Source of the DNA: Maricaulis sp.
GTDB taxonomy: Bacteria; Pseudomonadota; Alphaproteobacteria; Caulobacterales; Maricaulaceae
NCBI RefSeq assembly: GCF_030149515.1
Contig: NZ_JASBRI010000015.1
Coordinates: 79,477 to 143,476 of the forward strand
DNA length: 64,000 nucleotides
Direction of reading: 5' to 3'
Shown: piece by piece, positions 43,737 to 58,180 of the stretch
Layout of the letters: each line of letters opens with the position of its first letter
Position numbering within the stretch: the first letter of the stretch is position 1
The notes under the pieces: generated by a model
What the model was told of the DNA's origin: nothing
Seen by the model: the letters and a program-made list of their open reading frames with translations, nothing else
Database searches by the model: none
Position numbers and translations under genes: made by a program

Positions 43737-45101
43737 ATGACTGAATTTCATGCCGAGACCTGCCTTCTGCCAGCCGGATGGGCCAGCCGGGTCTCGATCC
43801 GTGTGGATGAGACCGGCAGCCTAGCGCAGATAACACCGGACAGCGATCCGGCACCCGGCGCGATCCGGCTGGGTACGGTGGTGCCGGGCATGGCCAATCT
43901 CCACTCGCACAGCTTCCAGCGCGCCATGGCCGGGCTGACGGAAGTCCGCGGCGCCGGAGAGGACAGTTTCTGGTCCTGGCGCCAGCTGATGTACGCCTTC
44001 AACGAGCGTCTCAGCCCCGACCATGTCGAGGTGATCGCCTCCATGGTGCAGATCGAGATGCTGGAGGCGGGCTTCACCAGTGTCGGCGAGTTCCACTATC
44101 TCCACCACGCGCCTGACGGTTCGGCCTATGACGATCCGGCGGAAATGGCCGGACGCATCTGCGCCGCCGCCGGCCGGACGGGGATCGCCCTCACCCTCCT
44201 GCCCGTCTTCTACCGCTGGTCCGGCTTCGGCCGGCAACAGCCCGGCGACGGCCAGCGCCGCTTTCTCAACGATCCCGACAGCTATGCCCGTCTGCTCGAG
44301 GCCGCGCTTGGGCACACGCGGCGGCTGCGGCATGCCCGGACCGGCATCGCCCCGCATTCGCTTCGCGCAGCGGACATGGACGACATCGCCGCGATTTTGC
44401 CGCTTGCCGACGGCGGGCCGGTCCATATTCACATCGCCGAACAGACCGCGGAAGTGGATGACTGCCTCGCCGCGACGGGCGTGCGGCCGGTGCGCCATCT
44501 CTTCAACCATCAGCCCGTGGACGATCGCTGGTGCCTGATCCACGCCACCCACATGGATGCCGGCGAGACACGCGATCTGGCCGTGTCAGGCGCCGTGGCC
44601 GGCCTGTGCCCCCTGACCGAAGCCAATCTGGGCGACGGCCTGTTTCCGGCCGCCGACTATCTCGCGGCGGGCGGACGGATCGGCATCGGCTCGGACAGTC
44701 ATATCCGCATCGACCTGGCCGAAGAGCTGCGGCTTCTGGAATACGGCGCCCGTCTCACCGCACGCCGGCGCAATGTCCTTGCAGCACCCCGTGCCAGCAC
44801 CGGACGCACCCTGTTCGACGCGGCCCTGGCCGGCGGCGCCCGGGCGCTGGGGCAGGCTTCCGGCGCGATTGCTCCCGGACAGCGCGCCGACCTTGTCGAG
44901 CTGGACACCGATCATCCCGTCCTGTCCGGGCGCAGGGGCGACAAGCTGCTGGACAGCTGGCTGTTCAGCGGCGACAGCCGCCTGGTGCGCTCGGTCCATG
45001 TCGGCGGCCGGGCCTGTGTGCACGGGGGACGTGCTCTTGCGCGCGACCCTGTGGTATCGGCCTGGCATCGCGTCCTGGCAGACATTCTGGAGCCGGCCTG
45101 A
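43737..45101 (+). CDS. hutF: Formimidoylglutamate deiminase
   Basis: This 454-residue amidohydrolase turns formimino-glutamate into formylglutamate plus ammonia, the step that feeds HutG. It carries GMANLHSHSFQRAMAGLTEVRG for the metal site, GEFHYLHHAPDGSAYDDP, IHIAEQTAEVDDC and the GIGSDSHIRIDLAEELRLLEYGARL segment. The ATG at 43737 is 79 bases from hutI on the opposite strand. Its stop shares one base with the hutC start (TGATG). Confidence 0.95.
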   Translation: MTEFHAETCLLPAGWASRVSIRVDETGSLAQITPDSDPAPGAIRLGTVVPGMANLHSHSFQRAMAGLTEVRGAGEDSFWSWRQLMYAFNERLSPDHVEVIASMVQIEMLEAGFTSVGEFHYLHHAPDGSAYDDPAEMAGRICAAAGRTGIALTLLPVFYRWSGFGRQQPGDGQRRFLNDPDSYARLLEAALGHTRRLRHARTGIAPHSLRAADMDDIAAILPLADGGPVHIHIAEQTAEVDDCLAATGVRPVRHLFNHQPVDDRWCLIHATHMDAGETRDLAVSGAVAGLCPLTEANLGDGLFPAADYLAAGGRIGIGSDSHIRIDLAEELRLLEYGARLTARRRNVLAAPRASTGRTLFDAALAGGARALGQASGAIAPGQRADLVELDTDHPVLSGRRGDKLLDSWLFSGDSRLVRSVHVGGRACVHGGRALARDPVVSAWHRVLADILEPA

Positions 45102-45838
45102 TGAACCGCCAATGTGACGATATCCGGCTGGACGGACAGGGTCCGGTCTATGACCAGATCAAGCGCGCGATTTCGGGCCTGATCCGGTCGGGCAGCTGGA
45201 AGCCCGGCGACCGGCTGCCGTCGGAAGCCCAGCTGAGCGACTATCTTGAAACGGCCCGCATGACGATCAACCGCGCACTCAAGGAACTCACCGAAGAGGG
45301 TCTGCTGGTGCGCAAACGCCGGGCCGGCACATTCGTGGCGCAACCCGAGTCGCCCTCGGCCATTCTCAAGATCGTCGACATGGCCAGCGCCATCCCGGCC
45401 CGCGGCCAGGTCTATGGCTATCGCTGCGAGGTCAACGAGACCGTGCCGGCGCCCGACACCATCGCCAAGCGCATGCGCCTGGCACACGGGGCGCGACTGC
45501 AGCACGTACAGTGCCTGCACACGGCCGACGGCGAGATCGTCGAATACGAGGAACGCTGGATCAACCTGGCCCTGTTGCCGCAAGCCGGCAGGGCCGACTT
45601 TTCCGGGCAGAGCCCGAGCGGCTGGCTGCAGCGCGCCACACCCTGGACCGAGGCCGAACACACAGTCTCGGCCGTCAACGCCACACCCGAACAGGCCCGG
45701 CGCCTGGGCGTCGCACCGGGCGCGGCGCTCCTGGTGCTGGAAAGGCGCACCTTCCACAATGAAGACGTCGTCACCTATGCCCGTCTCACCCATCCCGGCA
45801 CCCGCCATTCCATGACGGAACGCTTCGGGCCCGGTTAG
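45101..45838 (+). CDS. hutC: Histidine utilisation repressor HutC (GntR/HutC family)
   Basis: This 245-residue repressor has a GntR winged helix-turn-helix (about residues 15-85: PVYDQIKRAISGLIRSGSWKPGDRLPSEAQLSDYL, with TARMTINRALKELTEEGLL) and a UTRA ligand domain (about 100-245) with IVEYEERWINLALLP and VLERRTFHNEDVVTYARLTHPG. Family members bind urocanate and release the hut promoters. It is co-translated with hutF and presumably binds the palindrome upstream of it. Confidence 0.94.
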   Translation: MNRQCDDIRLDGQGPVYDQIKRAISGLIRSGSWKPGDRLPSEAQLSDYLETARMTINRALKELTEEGLLVRKRRAGTFVAQPESPSAILKIVDMASAIPARGQVYGYRCEVNETVPAPDTIAKRMRLAHGARLQHVQCLHTADGEIVEYEERWINLALLPQAGRADFSGQSPSGWLQRATPWTEAEHTVSAVNATPEQARRLGVAPGAALLVLERRTFHNEDVVTYARLTHPGTRHSMTERFGPG

Positions 45839-49164: not shown

Positions 49165-49797
49165 TCAGCTCCGCGCGCTCTTGGCCGCGCGCACCGCATG
49201 GCGCCGGCGCAGAACCGTGACGACATCGTCCAGGCTCAAATCACGCGATTCCAGAAGCACCATCAGATGGAAGAGCAGATCGGCCGCCTCTGTCTTCAGC
49301 GCCGCCTTCGATTCGGAGACGGCGGCCATGGCAACCTCGACCCCCTCCTCGCCAACCTTCTGGGCCGGACGCTTCGGTGCCCGCGCCATCAGTCCGCCGA
49401 CATAGGACCCCTTGGGCTTGTCCTTCTTGCGCTTGCGGATAATCGTGCGCAGATGCGCCAGAAAGCCGAGGCCGGGGCCCGGATCGTCGCCGAAACAGCT
49501 CACCGTCTCCTTGTGGCAGGCCGGCCCCTTCGGCTTGACCTCCACCAGAAGCGCATCGCTGTCACAGTCGGCCGCAATATTCACCAGCTTGAAGGTGTTG
49601 CCCGACGTCTCGCCCTTCTTCCACAGCGCCTGTTTCGAGCGCGAGTAGAAATGCACCTTGCCGGTGCCGACCGTCCGGGCCAGCGCCTCTTCATTCATGT
49701 AGCCCAGCATCAGTACCTGACGCGTGGCATGGTCCTGGACAATGGCCGGAATGAGCCCGTCGGACTTGTTCCAGTCCAGGCTTGTCGCATCGATCAT
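49165..49797 (-). CDS. hisIE: Bifunctional phosphoribosyl-AMP cyclohydrolase / phosphoribosyl-ATP pyrophosphatase
   Basis: This 210-residue fusion performs steps 2 and 3 of histidine synthesis. The HisI half (about 1-110) shows [39 protein letters not shown] and the zinc cysteines in [11 protein letters not shown] with [12 protein letters not shown]. The HisE half (about 115-210) has [16 protein letters not shown] and [23 protein letters not shown]. In many alphaproteobacteria hisI and hisE are separate, so the fused form is a lineage choice. The start overlaps hisF by 4 bases; last gene of the his operon. Confidence 0.95.
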
Positions 49798-50561
49798 GAT
49801 CTGACCCTGATCCCCTCGGCACCAAGATAGGCCTTTAACTCGCCTATCTCCATGACCCTCTTGTGAAATACACTGGCCGCCAGCGCACCGTCGACATTGG
49901 CCAATTCGAAGGCGGATTTGAAGTGCTCTTTCCGCCCGGCCCCGCCCGAAGCGATCAAAGGCGTTGAACAGGCCGCCCGCGCCGCGGCCAGTTGCTCGAT
50001 ATCGTATCCGTCGCGCACCCCGTCCATGTCCATGCAGTTCAGCACGACCTCGCCCGCGCCGCGATCGATGCCCTCGGCGATCCAGTCCAGCGTGCGGCGT
50101 TCGACCGTGCGCGTCTTGTCGGGGTCGCCGGTGAACTGGTGCACCCGCCATTGGCCGGCTATGAGCCGGCTATCGACGCCGAGGACCACACACTGACACC
50201 CGAATTCACGCGCCAGGGCGTCGATCAGGCCCGGATTTTCCAGCGCCGGGGAGTTCACCGAAATCTTGTCCGCCCCCGCAAACAGCCGCGCCCGGGCATC
50301 GTCGACGGAGCGGATACCGCCGGCCACGCAGAAGGGAATATCGATCTCCCGGGCCACCGCACTGACCCATTCCGGCTCCACCGTGGCACCGCGTGCCGAC
50401 GCCGTTATGTCATAGAAAACAAGCTCATCCGCGCCCTCACGGGCGTAGCGCCGGGCCAGTTCCACAATGCCGCCGACATCCTCGTGATTGCGGAATTTCA
50501 CACCCTTCACCACGCGGCCGTCGCGCACGTCGAGGCAGGGAATTATGCGTCTTGCGAGCAT
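49794..50561 (-). CDS. hisF: Imidazole glycerol phosphate synthase subunit HisF
   Basis: This 255-residue barrel subunit uses ammonia from HisH to form imidazole glycerol phosphate and [32 protein letters not shown] holds the catalytic Asp; [41 protein letters not shown] and [18 protein letters not shown] follow in family order. The start overlaps the hisA end by 19 bases, and the end overlaps hisIE by 4 bases. Confidence 0.96.
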
Positions 50562-51277
50562 TCCAGCGCCTCCTCCAGCGTGAAACGGCCCTCATAGAGC
50601 GCCTTGCCCGAAATCGCCCCCGCCACCCCGGTTCCACGCACCGCCTCGATATCCTCCAGCGAGGCAATACCGCCGGAGGCCTGCCAGGCCACATCCGGGA
50701 ACCGTTCGGTCAAACCCTTGTAAAGCAAGAGGTTGGGACCCGAGAGATCGCCATCGCGGCCGATATCTGTGACCAGGGCATGGGCCAGACCCGAACCGTC
50801 ATAGGCTTTCATGACATCGTCCAGCGTGGTCATCATCAGATCGGTCCAGCCCGACAGGGCCGGCCGGTACTGCCCCGCAACCCGGCGCACATCCAGCGCC
50901 AGCGTGATACGGTCGGCCCCGTAGCGGCCGATCCATTCGCCGACGCGTTCCGGATCCGTCACGGCAAGCGAGCCGACGATCACCCGTTCGACATCCATCG
51001 CCAGCAGGCTCTCGACATCCTCGGCCGAGCGGACGCCGCCCCCGGTCTGCACGCGCAGCCCCGTCCGGCACAGGGCCCGGATGGTGTCGCTCTGCCTGCG
51101 CTGGCCGTCGCGGGCGCCGGACAGGTCGACGACATGGATCCAGCTCGCCCCAGCCTCGCCGAAACGTTCAGCCACGGCGACCGGGTCGTCGCCATAATCG
51201 GTGACGGCATCGAACTCGCCCTTGTGCAGGCGCACGACACGGCCGTCCAGAAGATCGATTGCCGGGTATAGTATCAC
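50543..51277 (-). CDS. hisA: ProFAR isomerase HisA
   Basis: This 244-residue barrel isomerase carries out step 4. [31 protein letters not shown] has the catalytic Asp; [30 protein letters not shown] and [16 protein letters not shown] follow. The start is GTG at 51277, one base after the hisH stop; no ATG in frame gives the family N terminus. The end overlaps hisF by 19 bases. Confidence 0.95.
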
Positions 51278-51278
51278 G

Positions 51279-51872
51279 CTAAATGCTCGCAAAATTTGAG
51301 AGAATTCTCGCCCCGGCCAAGCCGGAGCGCTCCGGGTGAAACTGGCAGCCGGACACGTGCTCCCGGCGCACAATGGCCGAAATGGCGGCACCGTAATCGC
51401 ACTGCGCCCGGGTCACCGCTCCTGCCGGCACATAGAATCCGTGGACGAAATAGACATGTGTGCCGGCGGGAATGCCCCGCAGCAGCGGCTCGTCGGCGGC
51501 CGGCGCCTCCAGCGTATTCCAGCCCATGTGCGGCCAGACCAGACCGTCCGTCCGCGGCAATTGCCGCACCTGGCCCGGCAGCAGTTCGAGACAGGCCGCA
51601 TTGCCCTCGTCCGAGGTTTCAAACAATAATTGCATGCCCAAACAGATGCCCAGCAGCGGCCGGCCGTCGATGCGCAGCGAAACGTCCCATCCCCGCGCGC
51701 GCAGACGGTCCATGGCCGGACCGGCCGCCCCGACGCCCGGCAGTATCAGCCGGTCGCAATCGCCGGTCTCGTCGGCATCGCGCACGACAACATGGTTGAG
51801 TCCGGCCCGCTCCAGCGCGAACCGCACGGACGCAATATTGGCGCAGCCCGTATCGATCAGACCGATGGTCAT
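51279..51872 (-). CDS. hisH: Imidazole glycerol phosphate synthase glutaminase subunit HisH
   Basis: This 197-residue class-I glutamine amidotransferase supplies ammonia to HisF. The nucleophile is the cysteine in PLLGICLGMQLLFETSDEG, and the His/Glu partners lie in GCQFHPERSGLAG. The start ATGA overlaps the stop of the hisDB fusion by 4 bases. HisG, HisD-HisB, HisH, HisA, HisF and HisIE are encoded in this operon; HisC and HisN are not. Confidence 0.95.
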   Translation of the reverse strand: MTIGLIDTGCANIASVRFALERAGLNHVVVRDADETGDCDRLILPGVGAAGPAMDRLRARGWDVSLRIDGRPLLGICLGMQLLFETSDEGNAACLELLPGQVRQLPRTDGLVWPHMGWNTLEAPAADEPLLRGIPAGTHVYFVHGFYVPAGAVTRAQCDYGAAISAIVRREHVSGCQFHPERSGLAGARILSNFASI

Positions 51873-53767
51873 GCCAGGACACCCTTGGTGGACGGCAAGG
51901 CCTCGCCCTCGATCCGCACGGCCGAACGCAACGCCCGTCCGAAAGCCTTGAAGCAGCTTTCCACCATGTGATGAGCATTCTCGCCCTCCACCTTCACGTG
52001 AATGGCCGCGCCCAGGCTCTCCGCGATGGAGCGGAAGGCATGGCCTGTCATCTCGACCGGAAATTCACCGACGCTGTCGCCCGGGATCTCGCCCTCGAAA
52101 CGGGCGAAGGGCCGTCCGGACAAATCGATCCACACCGCCGCCCGGCTTTCGTCCATGGGCAGTTCGAAACCGAAACGGGCAATCCCGCGCTTGTCGCCCA
52201 GCGCCTCGCGCAAGGCTTCGCCGAAGGTCAGGCAGACATCCTCGATCGTATGGTGGGCGTCGATGTGGAGATCGCCCTCCACCGCAACGTCCAGCGCGAT
52301 CCCGCCGTGCCTGGCCACCTGTTCGAGCATGTGGTTGAAATAACCCACGCCCGTTGCAATACGGTTCGGGCCGTCCCGGTCGAGATTGACGGTCACGGTG
52401 ACATCGGTCTCGGCGGTCTTGCGGCGCTTCGTGCCGGCGCGGGGGCGGCCGTCAGCCGTATCCGGTTTGAGGGCTTCGGCCCGTTCGCGGCGCAGGCGCA
52501 TGGCGGTCGCGTGCGCGTCCAGGCCTTCCAGCGCCGCCAGCCGCTCGACCGCCGGTGCCATCGCGGCCGCGCCCTGAGGACTGGCACGCAGGATGGTGGT
52601 CGTCTTCTGGAACGCTTCGACCGTGACCCCGCCATAGGCCCGGCCCGCCCCGCCGGTGGGCAGGGTGTGGTTGGGACCGGCGGCGTAATCGCCGGCTGCT
52701 TCGGGCGTCCAGGACCCGACGAAAATCGAGCCGGCATGACGCACCAGCCCGACCAGGCGTTCGGCATTGTCGGTCTGCAGGATCAGGTGTTCCGGAGCGT
52801 AGGTATTGGCTACCTCAGCCGCGTCTTCGGGCGTGTCGCACACGACCGCGCGCGACTGTGCCAGCGCTGCGCGCGCGATGCCGGCGCGGGGCAGTCGCCC
52901 GAGCTGAGCCTCGACCGCGGCGATGACACGCTCGCGGGTCAGCTCTTCGTAGCAGACCAGGATCACCTGGGCGGCCGGGTCGTGCTCGGCCTGACTCAAC
53001 AGATCGCTGGCGACGAGCTCCGGATCGGCCCCGTTATCCGCGATCACCATAACCTCGCTGGGACCGGCCGGCAGATCGATGGCGGGACCGCCCGGCAAAC
53101 CGGCCACATAGGCCTTGGCTGCGGCTACATAGGCATTGCCGGGACCGAATATCTTGTCGGCGCGCGGCAGGCCGGCCGAACCCGTGGCCAGCGCGGCAAT
53201 CGCCTGGGCGCCGCCAATGGCATAGACCTCGTCGATACCCAGCAGGCCGGCCGTCGCGAGGAGCGCCGGATTCACGCCACCCTCGCCGGCAGGCGGCGCG
53301 ACGACGACGATGCGCGGTACACCGGCCAGCTGGGCCGGGACTGCCAGCATCACAAGTGTGGACACCAGCGGCGCGCTGCCGGCCGGAACGTAGAGTGCCG
53401 CAACATCGACAGGCGTGGTACGCCGGGACGCCGTGACACCTGGCCAAGTCTCGACCGAATAGCCGGAATAGCCCTGTTTGACGTGGAAACGCCGCACCGC
53501 ATCCGCAGCCGCCTTTATGGCCTCGGCATCGGCGGGTTCCATCGCTGCACGCGCCGTTGCGATTGCTTCAACCGACACACGAAAGTCTTCCGGCGCATAG
53601 CCGTCCAATCGTGCGGCATAAGCCCGTACCGCCTCGTCGCCACGCCCGCGCACGGCGTCGACGATCTCACGCGCCGCCGCATCGGCCGTACCTGTCTCCG
53701 CCGGACGGGCCAGTGCCCGGCGCCGCGCCTGCGGGGTCGCTTCGTTCCAGATCACTTTGTCCAGCAT
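51869..53767 (-). CDS. hisDB: HisD-HisB fusion: histidinol dehydrogenase + imidazoleglycerol-phosphate dehydratase
   Basis: This single 632-residue frame fuses two histidine enzymes. Residues 1 to about 425 are histidinol dehydrogenase: zinc ligands Q259, H262, D360 and H419 and the catalytic pair E326-H327 (APEH) match the E. coli numbering exactly. After a linker of about 23 residues (EALKPDTADGRPRAGTKR) residues 449-632 are HisB, with all metal-binding histidines and acidic residues (H479 in NHMLEQ; H501, H505, H506, E509 in the HIDAHHTIED segment; H576 in EMTGHAF; H599, H600, E603 in ENAHHMVES). No stop or plausible start separates the parts. Histidine steps 6 and 9-10 are thus on one chain. 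It starts 7 bases after hisG and overlaps hisH by 4. Confidence 0.93.
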   Translation of the reverse strand: MLDKVIWNEATPQARRRALARPAETGTADAAAREIVDAVRGRGDEAVRAYAARLDGYAPEDFRVSVEAIATARAAMEPADAEAIKAAADAVRRFHVKQGYSGYSVETWPGVTASRRTTPVDVAALYVPAGSAPLVSTLVMLAVPAQLAGVPRIVVVAPPAGEGGVNPALLATAGLLGIDEVYAIGGAQAIAALATGSAGLPRADKIFGPGNAYVAAAKAYVAGLPGGPAIDLPAGPSEVMVIADNGADPELVASDLLSQAEHDPAAQVILVCYEELTRERVIAAVEAQLGRLPRAGIARAALAQSRAVVCDTPEDAAEVANTYAPEHLILQTDNAERLVGLVRHAGSIFVGSWTPEAAGDYAAGPNHTLPTGGAGRAYGGVTVEAFQKTTTILRASPQGAAAMAPAVERLAALEGLDAHATAMRLRRERAEALKPDTADGRPRAGTKRRKTAETDVTVTVNLDRDGPNRIATGVGYFNHMLEQVARHGGIALDVAVEGDLHIDAHHTIEDVCLTFGEALREALGDKRGIARFGFELPMDESRAAVWIDLSGRPFARFEGEIPGDSVGEFPVEMTGHAFRSIAESLGAAIHVKVEGENAHHMVESCFKAFGRALRSAVRIEGEALPSTKGVLA

Positions 53768-53774
53768 AACAGCC

Positions 53775-54659
53775 TCAGGCGAGCATTTTCTCGATCGGAA
53801 GGACGAGGATGGCGCGTGCGCCCTCCTTTTCCAGAGCTTCGAGCGTTTCCCAGAAAACCCGTTCGCGGCAGACGGCGTGCATCGCCACCACGTCGTCGCG
53901 GCCGGCGACCCGGGCAATTGTGGGCGCGTCGGCGCCCGGTAGGAGACCGCGGATCGCATCGAGCCGGTCCGTCGGCGCGTTCAGCATGATGTACTTGGTC
54001 TGGGCACAGGCGATCACGCCTTCGGCCCGGCGCATCAACACATCGGCGACGGCATCGGTCTCGGCGTCGCGGCCCGAGCTGCGCCGGATCAGCACCGCCT
54101 CGCTTTCAAGCACGGTCTCGAAGGCTTCCAGCCCATTGGCCTGAAGCGTCGCACCCGAAGACACAAGGTCACAGATCGCGTCCGCGATCCGCAGGCGCGG
54201 CGCAACCTCCACCGATCCCCGCATTTCCACGATCTCGGCATCGATACCACGCTCTGCCAGATATCGCGCCGTCAGCGCCGGATAGGATGTCGCGATGGCC
54301 TTGCCAGCGAGATCGGCGACCGATTGTACAGGCCCGCCGTGAGGCGCGGCCAGTTTGAGCGTGCAGCCGGCAAACCCGAGGCGCAACGCCACGTCCAGCT
54401 CCCGCGCACGCCCGCCGGATGCCTGTTCCTCGCGCAGCACATTCTCGCCGACAATGCCGTAGTCGCAGGCTCCGGAGCCGACAAAATTCGGAATATCGTC
54501 ATCCCGCACCAGCATCAGGTCGACCGCCATGTTCTCGGCGCGCTGATGCAGCTTGTCGCGGCCATAGGCAAAGCGAAGCCCGCAGCGCTTCAACAGGTCC
54601 ATTCCGCCTTCGGCGAGGCGGCCCTTGCTCTGGACGGCAATTCTGAGACGCTTACTCAC
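53775..54659 (-). CDS. hisG: ATP phosphoribosyltransferase, long form HisG
   Basis: This 294-residue enzyme makes the committed step of histidine synthesis from ATP and PRPP. IAVQSKGRLAEGGMDLLKRCGL starts the family core; the PRPP region reads ADAICDLVSSGATLQANGLEAFETV. The C-terminal about 75 residues form the regulatory domain that binds histidine for feedback control, so this is the long form that does not need HisZ. It overlaps the upstream regulator gene by 8 bases. Confidence 0.95.
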   Translation of the reverse strand: MSKRLRIAVQSKGRLAEGGMDLLKRCGLRFAYGRDKLHQRAENMAVDLMLVRDDDIPNFVGSGACDYGIVGENVLREEQASGGRARELDVALRLGFAGCTLKLAAPHGGPVQSVADLAGKAIATSYPALTARYLAERGIDAEIVEMRGSVEVAPRLRIADAICDLVSSGATLQANGLEAFETVLESEAVLIRRSSGRDAETDAVADVLMRRAEGVIACAQTKYIMLNAPTDRLDAIRGLLPGADAPTIARVAGRDDVVAMHAVCRERVFWETLEALEKEGARAILVLPIEKMLA

Positions 54660-54972
54660 TGGCCTGCTCCTTCAGCCGGTCGAGGATGATGCGATAGCCC
54701 TGCCAGGGCTCTTGGGAGAGGAAGCGGGAGACACGGGTGACCGTTGTGGTCGATGCGCCGGTCATCTCGGCGATCTCACGATAGGAAAACCCGCCCTTGT
54801 CCAGAAGCCTGGCGACACGCCAGCGTTCGACAAGCGTGCGTACTTCCCCGGGCGTCAGCAGGTCGCGCAGAAAGCGCTCGGCCTCGCGGGCATCACGCAG
54901 CGCCAGCAGCGCCTCGCACAGGGGCTGAATGTCCGGCGCCGGCGTACGCGCATCTTCCACTTGATCGTCCAT
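54652..54972 (-). CDS. TrpR-like (YerC/YecD) regulator heading the histidine operon
   Basis: This 106-residue protein has the TrpR/YerC-YecD fold: LCEALLALRDAREAERFLRDLLTPGEVRTLVERWRVARLLDKG, with a helix-turn-helix in GFSYREIAEMTGASTTTVTRVSRFL (about residues 65-90). TrpR-like proteins of this group have been proposed as histidine-operon repressors (HisR) in other phyla. AAGGAG lies 8 bases before the ATG at 54972; an in-frame GTG at 54981 overlaps that site and is unlikely. It is the first gene of the transcript and overlaps hisG by 8 bases, so histidine levels could set its expression and that of all his genes. Confidence 0.88.
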   Translation of the reverse strand: MDDQVEDARTPAPDIQPLCEALLALRDAREAERFLRDLLTPGEVRTLVERWRVARLLDKGGFSYREIAEMTGASTTTVTRVSRFLSQEPWQGYRIILDRLKEQASE

Positions 54973-54993
54973 GCATGTCACTCCTTGTGCGCC

Positions 54994-55021: not shown

Positions 55022-55144
55022 TAGGCGATGTCAGGAAGAACGCATCTCCGTCCTCCTGACTGCAGTCGGGCGATACCCCGCTTGTTCCGACTGCAATCCC
55101 CTTTATCTTGTTAATTGCGAATCTACGGATGTATTGGATGCGCT

Positions 55145-55447
55145 ATGCCCCTGGAGGACATGAAGCCGCTGGCCGACGATATGGCAGAGCTGATGAAGAC
55201 CCTCGCCCATGCCAACCGCCTGCTCGCCCTTTGTGCGATCATGGACAATGAACGTTCGGTCGGTAAGCTGGCCGAGGACCTCGGCATGCGCACTCAGGCG
55301 ATGTCGCAGCAATTGGCCATCCTTCGCAACAAGGGCCTGGTGAAGACGCGCCGCGATGGCCAGACCATCTACTACAGCCTCGCTGACGACCGGCTGCACC
55401 GTCTGATATCCACCCTCTACGACACCTATTGCCGTCCGGCCGCTTGA
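55145..55447 (+). CDS. ArsR family regulator, BigR/SqrR-like sulfide sensor
   Basis: From the ATG at 55145 this is a 100-residue ArsR winged-helix protein (MKTLAHANRLLALCAIMDNERSVGKLAEDLGMRTQAMSQQLAILRNKGLVKTRRDGQ). Two cysteines, C30 in the first long helix and C96 near the end, are 66 residues apart, the same spacing as the persulfide-sensing pair of BigR and SqrR. Upstream in-frame ATG at 55115 would extend it by 10 residues with two more cysteines but lacks a better ribosome site. It precedes a persulfide-dioxygenase-like gene by 110 bases. Confidence 0.85.
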   Translation: MPLEDMKPLADDMAELMKTLAHANRLLALCAIMDNERSVGKLAEDLGMRTQAMSQQLAILRNKGLVKTRRDGQTIYYSLADDRLHRLISTLYDTYCRPAA

Positions 55448-55493
55448 GCTACACAGACCCGGCCTGCGACCGCCCGCCGCACAACCTCATATT

Positions 55494-55507
55494 TGCATGA
55501 CTATGCA
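55494..55507. promoter_or_regulatory. Palindrome upstream of the persulfide-dioxygenase gene
   Basis: TGCAT and ATGCA arms separated by GACT lie in the short AT-rich gap between the ArsR regulator and the metallo-hydrolase gene. It is a plausible operator for the regulator, but it does not match the SqrR consensus I remember, so the link is tentative. Confidence 0.35.
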
Positions 55508-55557
55508 CATAAACTATATCCAGGGTCGAGAAACGCATTCGGAGTAGCCTTCAGATC

Positions 55558-56424
55558 ATGTCCAAGCCTGCCGTTCAGTCCTTCTTCGACCCCGACACGT
55601 TCACCGTGAGCTACATCGTTTCCGATCCGGAAACGGCGCGCGCGGCGATCGTGGACTCCGTGCTCGATTTCGACCAGGCGTCCGGCCGGACCTCGACCCG
55701 ATCCGCAGACCGGATCGTCGACCAGGTCCGCAAATCCGGTTTCACCGTCGAGTGGATTCTGGAGACACATGTCCATGCCGACCATCTGTCCGCCGCGCCC
55801 TTCCTGCAGAAGGAACTGGGTGGCACGATCGGGATCGGCGGCCACGTGACCGATGTGCAGAAGGTTTTCGGCGACCTGTTCGACGCCGGCCCGGGGTTCG
55901 CCCGCGACGGCTCACAGTTCGGCCATCTCTTCCAGGACGGAGAGACGTTCAGGATCGGCAATATCGAGGCCGAGGCAATCTGGACCCCGGGGCACACGCC
56001 GGCCTGCATGGTCTATCATATCGGCGACGCAGCCTTTGTCGGTGACACGCTCTTCATGCCGGACTTCGGGACCGCCCGCTGCGACTTCCCCGGCGGCGAT
56101 GCGCGGGAGCTGTATCGCTCGGTGCAGAAAATCTATGCCCTGCCCGACGAGACGCGCCTCTTCATGTGCCACGACTACAAGGCGCCCGGGCGGGACTATT
56201 TCGCCTGGGAAACAACGGTCGCGGAGGAGAAGGCACACAATATCCATCTCGATGCCGAGACGACCGAGGAGGCCTTTGTGAAGATGCGCACGGAGCGGGA
56301 CGCAACGCTGGACATGCCGCGCCTGATCCTGCCCTCGGTGCAGATCAACATGCGCGCGGGAAACCTGCCGGACCCGGCGGACAACGGGCTGCGCTATCTC
56401 AAACTTCCGATCGATGCGGTCTGA
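55558..56424 (+). CDS. MBL-fold persulfide dioxygenase-like enzyme (ETHE1/Blh family)
   Basis: This 288-residue metallo-beta-lactamase-fold protein has THVHADHLSAAPFLQKELGG (HxHxDH near residues 70-75), TPGHTPACMVYHIGD and FVGDTLFMPDFGTARCDFPGGDA with FMCHDYKAPGRDY at the C-terminal ligand. This pattern is that of ETHE1-like persulfide dioxygenases and Blh of Agrobacterium/Xylella; it lacks a fused rhodanese domain. It would convert glutathione persulfide to sulfite. It overlaps the SulP permease by 11 bases and follows the BigR/SqrR-like regulator. Confidence 0.88.
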   Translation: MSKPAVQSFFDPDTFTVSYIVSDPETARAAIVDSVLDFDQASGRTSTRSADRIVDQVRKSGFTVEWILETHVHADHLSAAPFLQKELGGTIGIGGHVTDVQKVFGDLFDAGPGFARDGSQFGHLFQDGETFRIGNIEAEAIWTPGHTPACMVYHIGDAAFVGDTLFMPDFGTARCDFPGGDARELYRSVQKIYALPDETRLFMCHDYKAPGRDYFAWETTVAEEKAHNIHLDAETTEEAFVKMRTERDATLDMPRLILPSVQINMRAGNLPDPADNGLRYLKLPIDAV

Positions 56425-58180
56425 AGCGCCGCTCGACCGCGCAGCCCGCCTCCTGCCGGGACTCGGCTGGCTGAAAGGGTATGACCGCGCCTCGCTCGGC
56501 GCGGATGCCCTGGCAAGCCTGGTCACCGCCATCCTGCTGGTGCCGCAGAGCCTGGCCTATGCCCTCCTTGCGGGCCTGCCGGCCCAGGCCGGACTTTATG
56601 CCTCCATCGCCCCGCTGTTCGCCTACGCCCTGTTCGGGTCCAGCCGTGTTCTGGCGGTCGGACCGGTTGCCGTGATCTCGCTGATGACCGCCGCTGCCAT
56701 CGGCTCCCTGGAGCTGACCGACCCGGGCGAAAAAATGGCCGCGGCGGGCGCACTGGCACTGCTCTCCAGCGCCTTCCTGCTCCTGTTCGGCCTGTTCCGG
56801 CTGGGCAGTGTGGCCAACTTTCTCAGCCGGCCGGTAGTTCACGCCTTCATCACCGCCTCGACCGTGCTGATCATCGCCAGCCAGCTGCGCCATGTCCTCG
56901 GCATCGACATGCATGGCGCCACCCTGCCGGAGCTGACCCTGTCCTTTCTGACAGGCATGCCCGGCGTGCAGCTGACCGCAATCGTGGTGGGGCTGGCCAG
57001 TCTCGGCTTTCTGCTGGCGGCCCGCTCCGCCCTGCCCGGCCTGCTGGCCCGCGCCGGCACACCGGCCGCCCTGGCCGACGGTCTCGTCCGCGCCGCGCCG
57101 GCCATACTCGTGGCGGTGGTCACGCTCATCGCGTGGCGCTTCGATCTCAACGCTGCAACCGGCCTCTCCATCGTCGGCGAACTCCCCTCCGGCCTGCCGC
57201 CTTTCGCCGTCCCGGTCGTCGAGCTGGAAACATGGCGGGCCCTGATCGGGCCCGCCGCGCTGATTTCCCTGATCGGTTTCGTCGAGAGCGTGTCGGTCGG
57301 CCAGTCACTGGCCGCCAAACACCGCGAACACATCCTGCCCAATCGCGAACTCGTCGGCCTGGGTGCGGCGAATGCCGCGGCCGCACTCACCGGCGGCTAT
57401 CCCGTCACCGGCGGTTTTGCACGCTCTGTCGTCAACGATACCGCCGGAGCGCGAACGCCCATTGCCGGCGTCTTTACCGCGATCCTGATCCTGGGCGTCG
57501 CCGCCTTTCTTACCCCCGCCTTCTACCACCTGCCCAAGGCCACGCTGGCCGCGACCATCCTGGCCGCGATCTGGAAGCTCGCCGACATCAAGGAAACCTG
57601 GGCCGCCTGGCGCTATGCAAGGTCGGACGGGGCCGCCGCATTTCTTACCCTTTTCGGCGTTCTCTTCCTGGGGGTAGAACTCGGCCTGACACTGGGCGTT
57701 GCCGTTTCGGTGGGAATGATCCTGCAGCGCACGATGCAACCGCACTGGGCCCGGCTGGGACAGGTGCCGGGCACGCATCATTTCCGCAATATCGACCGGC
57801 ATGACGTGATCGTGTCCCCACACGTCTACTCCCTGCGCGTGGACAGTGCGCTCTATTTCGCCAATGCGCGGTTCCTCGAAGATCTGGTTTCACGCATCGC
57901 CGCGCAGCATCCCGAGACCACGGACATTGTGCTCATGTTCCCGGCCGTGAATTTTGTAGATGCCAGCGCTCTGGGCTCGCTGCGCGAGATCAATGCGCGG
58001 CTGGCTGAGGCCGGTATTCGGCTTCACCTGTCCGAGGTGAAGGGACCGGTTGCCGACGGGCTGATCCAGGCTGGTCTGTTCGACGAATTGTCCGGCAATG
58101 TCTTCCTCTCGCACTACGCGGCCCTGCGCACGCTCGACCCCAAAACGACGCTTCGGGCCGAGGGTGTAGCGTCCAGCTAG
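56414..58180 (+). CDS. SulP family anion permease with STAS domain
   Basis: This 588-residue transporter has 12-14 membrane segments starting about residue 30, with the SulP signature around [46 protein letters not shown] and the second repeat [25 protein letters not shown]-terminal STAS domain (about 480-570: [38 protein letters not shown]) is intact. Sulfate, bicarbonate or sulfite are possible substrates. The 11-base overlap with the persulfide dioxygenase suggests it exports the sulfite or sulfate formed. Confidence 0.9.

Follow-up and report, generated by a model that had tools for sequence, protein, structure and literature searches.

A HisD–HisB fusion in the histidine operon of Maricaulis, probably descended from a HisC–HisB fusion

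We analyzed a 64,000-nucleotide stretch of a genome of the marine bacterium Maricaulis sp. (contig NZ_JASBRI010000015.1; here called the window), in which a single open frame on the minus strand (51869 to 53767) encodes histidinol dehydrogenase (HisD) followed by imidazoleglycerol-phosphate dehydratase (HisB), two enzymes that usually occur as individual polypeptides. We consider it very probable that the product is a real bifunctional enzyme that arose by subtraction, through the loss of a HisC domain in the middle. The sequences show directly that the frame is fused and conserved, that the aminotransferase HisC is intact, eroded, or absent in relatives, and that a second hisC exists elsewhere in the genome; activity of both halves, redundancy as the driver of erosion, and the deletion itself are inferred. 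A first-pass annotation of the window had recognized a real fusion of two enzymes, and this much stands, but it missed the history, namely the HisC–HisB ancestry and the erosion of HisC. Histidine biosynthesis is a standard model for the origin of gene fusions. Living relatives of Maricaulis keep successive stages—middle enzyme intact, inactive remnant, and remnant gone with the outer enzymes joined—so that fusion by loss of an intervening gene becomes directly testable.

Two enzymes in one frame

The 632-residue frame starts with an ATG at 53767, 7 nt past the hisG stop, and ends with a stop codon at 51869 to 51871; a longer in-frame start upstream (696 residues) would fall inside hisG. A search of the Maricaulis genome itself returned one HisD match and one HisD–HisB place. 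Both Pfam and NCBIfam profiles match the frame. Histidinol_dh (PF00815) covers residues 26 to 426 at near full length (475.8 bits; cut-off, 27), TIGR00069 for HisD scores 475.3 bits (cut-off, 243.8), and IGPD (PF00475) covers residues 472 to 613 with model positions 1 to 144 of 144 (188.2 bits; cut-off, 27), as the first-pass claim of a complete HisD and a complete HisB in one frame had it. From the Pfam matches and alignments, the HisD domain was set at residues 1 to 426 (52490 to 53767) and the HisB domain at residues 448 to 632 (51872 to 52426); alignment, identity, and model confidence place a linker at residues 427 to 447 (52427 to 52489), all on the minus strand.

The catalytic and metal-binding residues, already described as conserved, were invariant in an alignment of 19 fused proteins (18 from Maricaulis plus locus L116 from another genus, discussed below; the partial L020 was left out). 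In the HisD half, aligned with E. coli HisD 1k75, these are Q259, H262, E326, H327, D360, H367, and H419, which we take to be zinc and acid–base residues, as in E. coli HisD. In the HisB half they are H479, H505, H506, E509, H576, H599, H600, and E603, which were matched, by motif, spacing, and alignments, with the eight His/Glu residues that the available text names as Mn ligands of plant HISN5 (PMC10978614). The window copy carries Asn478 (52334 to 52336, minus strand) where 18 of the 19 fused proteins have Asp; this residue adjoins ligand His479 and is not among the eight ligands that the same text names for the plant enzyme.

The linker, about 20 residues long, is fast-evolving and contains the junction of the old HisD C terminus and the old HisB start. 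Mean pairwise identity among the 18 Maricaulis rows was 0.40 in the linker, compared to 0.74 in HisD and 0.83 in HisB. Ratios of nonsynonymous to synonymous substitution rates (dN/dS) for eight close pairs were 0.046 to 0.534 in the linker, 0.048 to 0.104 in HisD, and 0.009 to 0.055 in HisB, all of them rough values, with dS above 1 in several comparisons. In an AlphaFold monomer model of the fusion (14 sequences; mean predicted local distance difference test score [pLDDT], 79.4; predicted template modeling score, 0.64), most of both domains were confident. Confidence was low at residues 435 to 440 (pLDDT, <50) and also within the domains at 118 to 132, 367 to 388, and 620 to 632.

A fused frame could mislead in two ways, as an artefact or as a gene whose products are separate in the cell. 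The first-pass annotation had pointed to 52390 to 52480 as the place where a frameshift or hidden stop might lie, and none was found there. The junction lies in one frame in all 19 Maricaulis genomes, with relatives 63 to 87% identical to the window; no stop occurs at the junction in the other 18, and 17 of these cover the whole protein or nearly so, while the G013 match, at a contig end, covers residues 266 to 632 and spans the junction. The named records found to carry this protein all belong to Maricaulis and include M. maris, M. salignorans, M. parjimensis, and M. alexandrii. Because the junction reads in one frame in every genome of the genus searched, the fusion is not a sequencing error, and we rejected a sequencing or assembly artefact. 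A lost stop or frameshift that joins two normal genes is conceivable, given that in G552 hisD and hisB adjoin in one frame with TAA and then GTG between them, but against 19 open junctions its probability is negligible. That the protein is cleaved, or that an extra internal start yields separate HisB, is quite improbable. The fast evolution and low model confidence of the linker would fit such an arrangement. So would certain in-frame codons: 17 of 18 Maricaulis rows have an ATG 25 to 27 codons ahead of the HisB motif, three rows have a TTG at −23, and a few have a single GTG, TTG, or ATG closer to the motif. However, the recurrent ATG codes for a Met within the C-terminal part of HisD itself, and most sister genera with separate genes also have Met at this place. 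Starting at the GTG or TTG found 7 to 11 codons into the motif (12/19 rows) would truncate the first strand of HisB. Between Met423 and that strand, the window copy has no in-frame ATG, GTG, or TTG.

HisC in relatives and the origin of the fusion

Comparison with other genera points to a HisC–HisB fusion, its HisC half later eroded, as the probable ancestor of HisB in Maricaulis. A HisC–HisB fusion gene, with hisB as the 3′ half, occurs in 14 genomes from other genera of the family and order (L023:6064-7701, L025:3631-5280, and further loci L026, L027, L029, L129, and L148 to L155); the product was 545 to 555 residues long in the six measured. Calls of intact HisC used a wider motif around the pyridoxal phosphate (PLP) lysine, by which L131, L148, and L149, missed by a narrower one, are intact. 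In the nearest genera, Oceanicaulis and Hyphobacterium, the HisC half has eroded to ~190 to 215 residues without the PLP lysine. Loci with an eroded HisC domain of this kind, lacking the PLP lysine and sitting N-terminal on HisB, are L022, L024, L046, L047, L049 to L051, and L093; also L117 to L128, L130, and L133 to L147. Intermediate copies, with Leu in place of the PLP Lys, were found in L028 and L030, and it is likely that HisC eroded separately in G021 (L024) and in L028/L030. In the pairs tested, the eroded piece is mostly still under constraint, perhaps an enzyme turning into a structural appendage.

A stand-alone hisC above the model cut-off was present in 38 of 41 genomes in which the operon HisC is eroded or absent; of the three exceptions, G125 falls just below the cut-off, and G007 and G008 are incompletely assembled. 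Of the 14 genomes with intact HisC–HisB, four have another hisC above the cut-off, and in 10 the fused copy is the only hisC. The step from intact to eroded can be seen within one genus, where G422 has an intact HisC–HisB plus a stand-alone hisC and G021 has the eroded piece plus a stand-alone hisC. The stand-alone HisC of the window genome and the operon HisC of L025 share only 29% identity (266 columns); the two are therefore old paralogues or separate arrivals.

These states suggest an ancestral operon with hisD directly ahead of a HisC–HisB fusion gene, the two genes in most cases overlapping slightly. With another hisC present outside the operon, the operon copy would have become redundant, and its HisC half would then have lost the PLP site and shrunk. 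In the ancestor of Maricaulis, a deletion that removed everything between the end of hisD and the end of the eroded piece would have brought hisD into frame with hisB. In sister genera HisD typically ends …LEGLDAH..AM.LRRE.A.. and HisB begins …R.A..RRTTKETD. The Maricaulis join consists of a sister-type HisD end, a short variable stretch, and then …PRAGTKRRKT.ETD or a near variant, a pattern that would be explained by a deletion beginning at the hisD stop and taking out almost all of the eroded piece. In trees, the fused Maricaulis rows fell among the eroded rows of near genera, with the divergent L019 unstable; L020, L027, L032, L131, and L132 were left out, as were L024 and L128 from the concatenated tree (long branches).

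Two parts of this history invite other explanations. In the sister genera, the piece ahead of HisB might be an unrelated domain rather than eroded HisC, the fusion then having come about by another route, and in L022, L024, L046, L047, and L093 no HisC or aminotransferase family matched the piece. An earlier profile comparison with seven sequences a side gave a probability of 25.7% over 40 columns. With 28 and 14 sequences, however, the comparison of the eroded piece with HisC scored far above shuffled, reversed, and decoy controls (the larger alignments left out L024 and L140). The piece also has an aminotransferase fold with HisC chains as the top structural matches, its position in the operon is the same, and the Leu-for-Lys copies in L028 and L030 are intermediate, which leaves an unrelated domain very improbable. 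HisN as the missing middle piece, a guess from the size of the gap, was rejected, as no phosphatase model matched and the piece is HisC-like.

The other part concerns the number of fusion events. Among 137 genomes of the family (127 with a match), the fusion was found in the 19 Maricaulis genomes and in G447, a metagenome-assembled-genome-like assembly of the genus Hyphobacterium (88% completeness; 270 contigs) whose HisD–HisB frame (L116) differs from that of Maricaulis in its linker. We favor two origins, the G447 fusion being perhaps independent. A single origin, or transfer between the two genera, is somewhat unlikely, although an approximately unbiased test left a single clade of all 19 fused rows, L116 included, unrejected (P = 0.339), L116 has no settled place in the HisB tree, and flanking genes other than hisG were not decisive. 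Against it, both the HisD tree (97 and 95) and the concatenated tree (96) place L116 among Hyphobacterium, and its hisG is 63 to 66% identical to those of three Hyphobacterium loci, compared to 60 to 61% for three Maricaulis and 58% for one Oceanicaulis. Moreover, the six genus mates examined retain the eroded HisC piece, which a re-split of a fused gene could not restore.

Distribution and known fusions

Among the matches listed for 385 genomes of the class (292 with a match), only the window's own genome spans both domains; among those listed for 398 genomes of the phylum (374 with a match), only the own genome and G552 do. Each list holds roughly 150 matches, in which spanning matches are expected first by summed score, and a fused protein whose linker is long might show up as two matches and escape. 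The G552 locus (L156; G552:C59), with hisD and hisB in the same frame, is one stop codon short of a fusion. Of the listed class genomes, 11 have a HisD frame longer than 600 residues, and none of these had HisB in the same place; in G030, HisB lies close to HisD yet in its own frame. Other phyla were covered by a pattern scan alone (best 80 of 217 places), in which 14 of 79 loci were fused. Thirteen of these are Maricaulis records, and the remaining one, L048, has HisD and HisB identities equal to those of Maricaulis G004. Legionella matches extending past HisD (L081 and L083) were rejected, since a normal hisD stop is followed there by a frame that is HisC-like by eye. In the family search, G448 (Hyphobacterium genus; 99% complete) had no hisD or hisB match and is a possible histidine auxotroph.

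HisD–HisB joins a known class of his gene fusions, and this combination was not found described in the literature searched. The 2007 fusion list of Fani et al. names hisA/hisF, hisIE, hisHF, hisNB, and hisIED and, in the text available, neither HisD–HisB nor HisC–HisB, nor Maricaulis or Oceanicaulis; it counts one alphaproteobacterial HisNB, not traced here (PMC1963479). Nor are HisD–HisB and HisC–HisB mentioned in the accessible portions of an archaeal survey (PMC11237513), a Bacteroidota study (PMC8305728), and a 2023 review (PMC10138114). In the open-licence literature we found no description of either fusion, in agreement, as far as these partly available sources go, with the earlier view that HisD–HisB is not a described type, and nothing on histidine biosynthesis in Maricaulis or a hisD fusion in Hyphomonadaceae. 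Among the matches listed there was no dedicated NCBIfam model for either.

HisNB (E. coli hisB; histidinol-phosphatase/imidazoleglycerol-phosphate dehydratase) likewise has HisB at the C terminus and another his enzyme in front, but its front is a DDDD phosphatase, whereas in Maricaulis it is HisD (residues 26 to 426). The best NCBIfam match of the Maricaulis HisB half is the HisNB model NF003937 (274.1; cut-off, 443), over model positions 165 to 355 only, and the N-terminal HAD/DDDD histidinol-phosphatase is absent. Fungal HIS4 (HisIED) also joins HisD to another his enzyme, but with HisD C-terminal and joined to HisIE; the available text of PMC1963479 reports HisIED as peculiar to eukaryotes. 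In the Maricaulis fusion, HisI and HisE do not precede HisD, and HisIE has its own frame (49165 to 49797). The HisC–HisB of family and order relatives occupies the same operon place and is the putative direct ancestor of the Maricaulis HisB half, differing in its aminotransferase front.

Predicted assembly and operon context

In the predicted bifunctional protein, the N-terminal half would carry out the final two reactions, oxidizing histidinol to histidine, and the C-terminal half would dehydrate imidazoleglycerol phosphate, an earlier, nonadjacent step. As the fused steps are not adjacent, channeling is not an obvious reason for the fusion, and none is expected, because the HisC and HisN steps separate the two reactions. 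We would instead expect the two halves to act independently, with the fusion serving to couple dosage and assembly. According to the available text on plant HISN5, the HisB 24-mer of 432 symmetry is conserved between kingdoms and its N-terminal sheet faces outward (PMC10978614), so an N-terminal partner could sit outside it. By analogy, HisB in the fusion would keep its 24-mer core, with HisD carried outside on a flexible linker. HisD is a dimer; 24 chains give 12 two-fold positions and a mass of 24 × 65.9 kDa = 1.58 MDa.

A more tentative suggestion, and on balance a doubtful one, is that the HisB 24-mer has served throughout as a scaffold, with its outward N-terminal position occupied in turn by active HisC, by an inactive remnant under structural or regulatory selection, and by HisD. 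If so, Maricaulis would contain a closed ~1.6-MDa particle in which a HisB core bears 12 HisD dimers, and the family would be a record of gene fusion brought about as a middle domain eroded, perhaps on two occasions (in Maricaulis and Hyphobacterium).

The fused gene lies in a compact run on the minus strand in the order yerC/TrpR-like, hisG, hisD–hisB, hisH, hisA, hisF, and hisIE. Upstream of hisG, the yerC/yecD TrpR-family regulator gene (54652 to 54981) matches TIGR02531 (66.6 bits; cut-off, 42.2), and profile matches identify hisG (53775 to 54659) as the long form with HisG_C. Then follow hisH (51279 to 51872; TIGR01855), which overlaps the hisD–hisB end by 4 nt; hisA (50543 to 51391 as listed), whose true start is probably downstream of the listed frame start, with the TIGR00007 match beginning at residue 41; hisF (49794 to 50561; TIGR00735); and hisIE (49165 to 49797; NF002747), shorter here than the listed frame because its probable start was set by a 4-nt overlap with hisF. 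The run had been called a complete-looking his operon, which fits its compactness but not its content: hisC (G000:C23:45681–46736) and a hisN-type phosphatase gene (G000:C23:174778–175533) are unlinked, on another contig. The operon HisD scores higher against many phylum members from other classes than against several genomes of its own order, and this, together with a HisB half nearest the HisNB model, suggests that the operon may have been acquired.

The plus strand carries hutF and hutC of histidine degradation (43737 to 45838) some 3 kb beyond the operon's 3′ end, with a TonB receptor gene and a beta-lactamase-family gene in between. Upstream of the operon, 55115 to 58180 on the plus strand encodes a BigR-like ArsR-family regulator (below the BigR model cut-off), a lone Blh-like dioxygenase domain (below cut-off), and a SulP permease.
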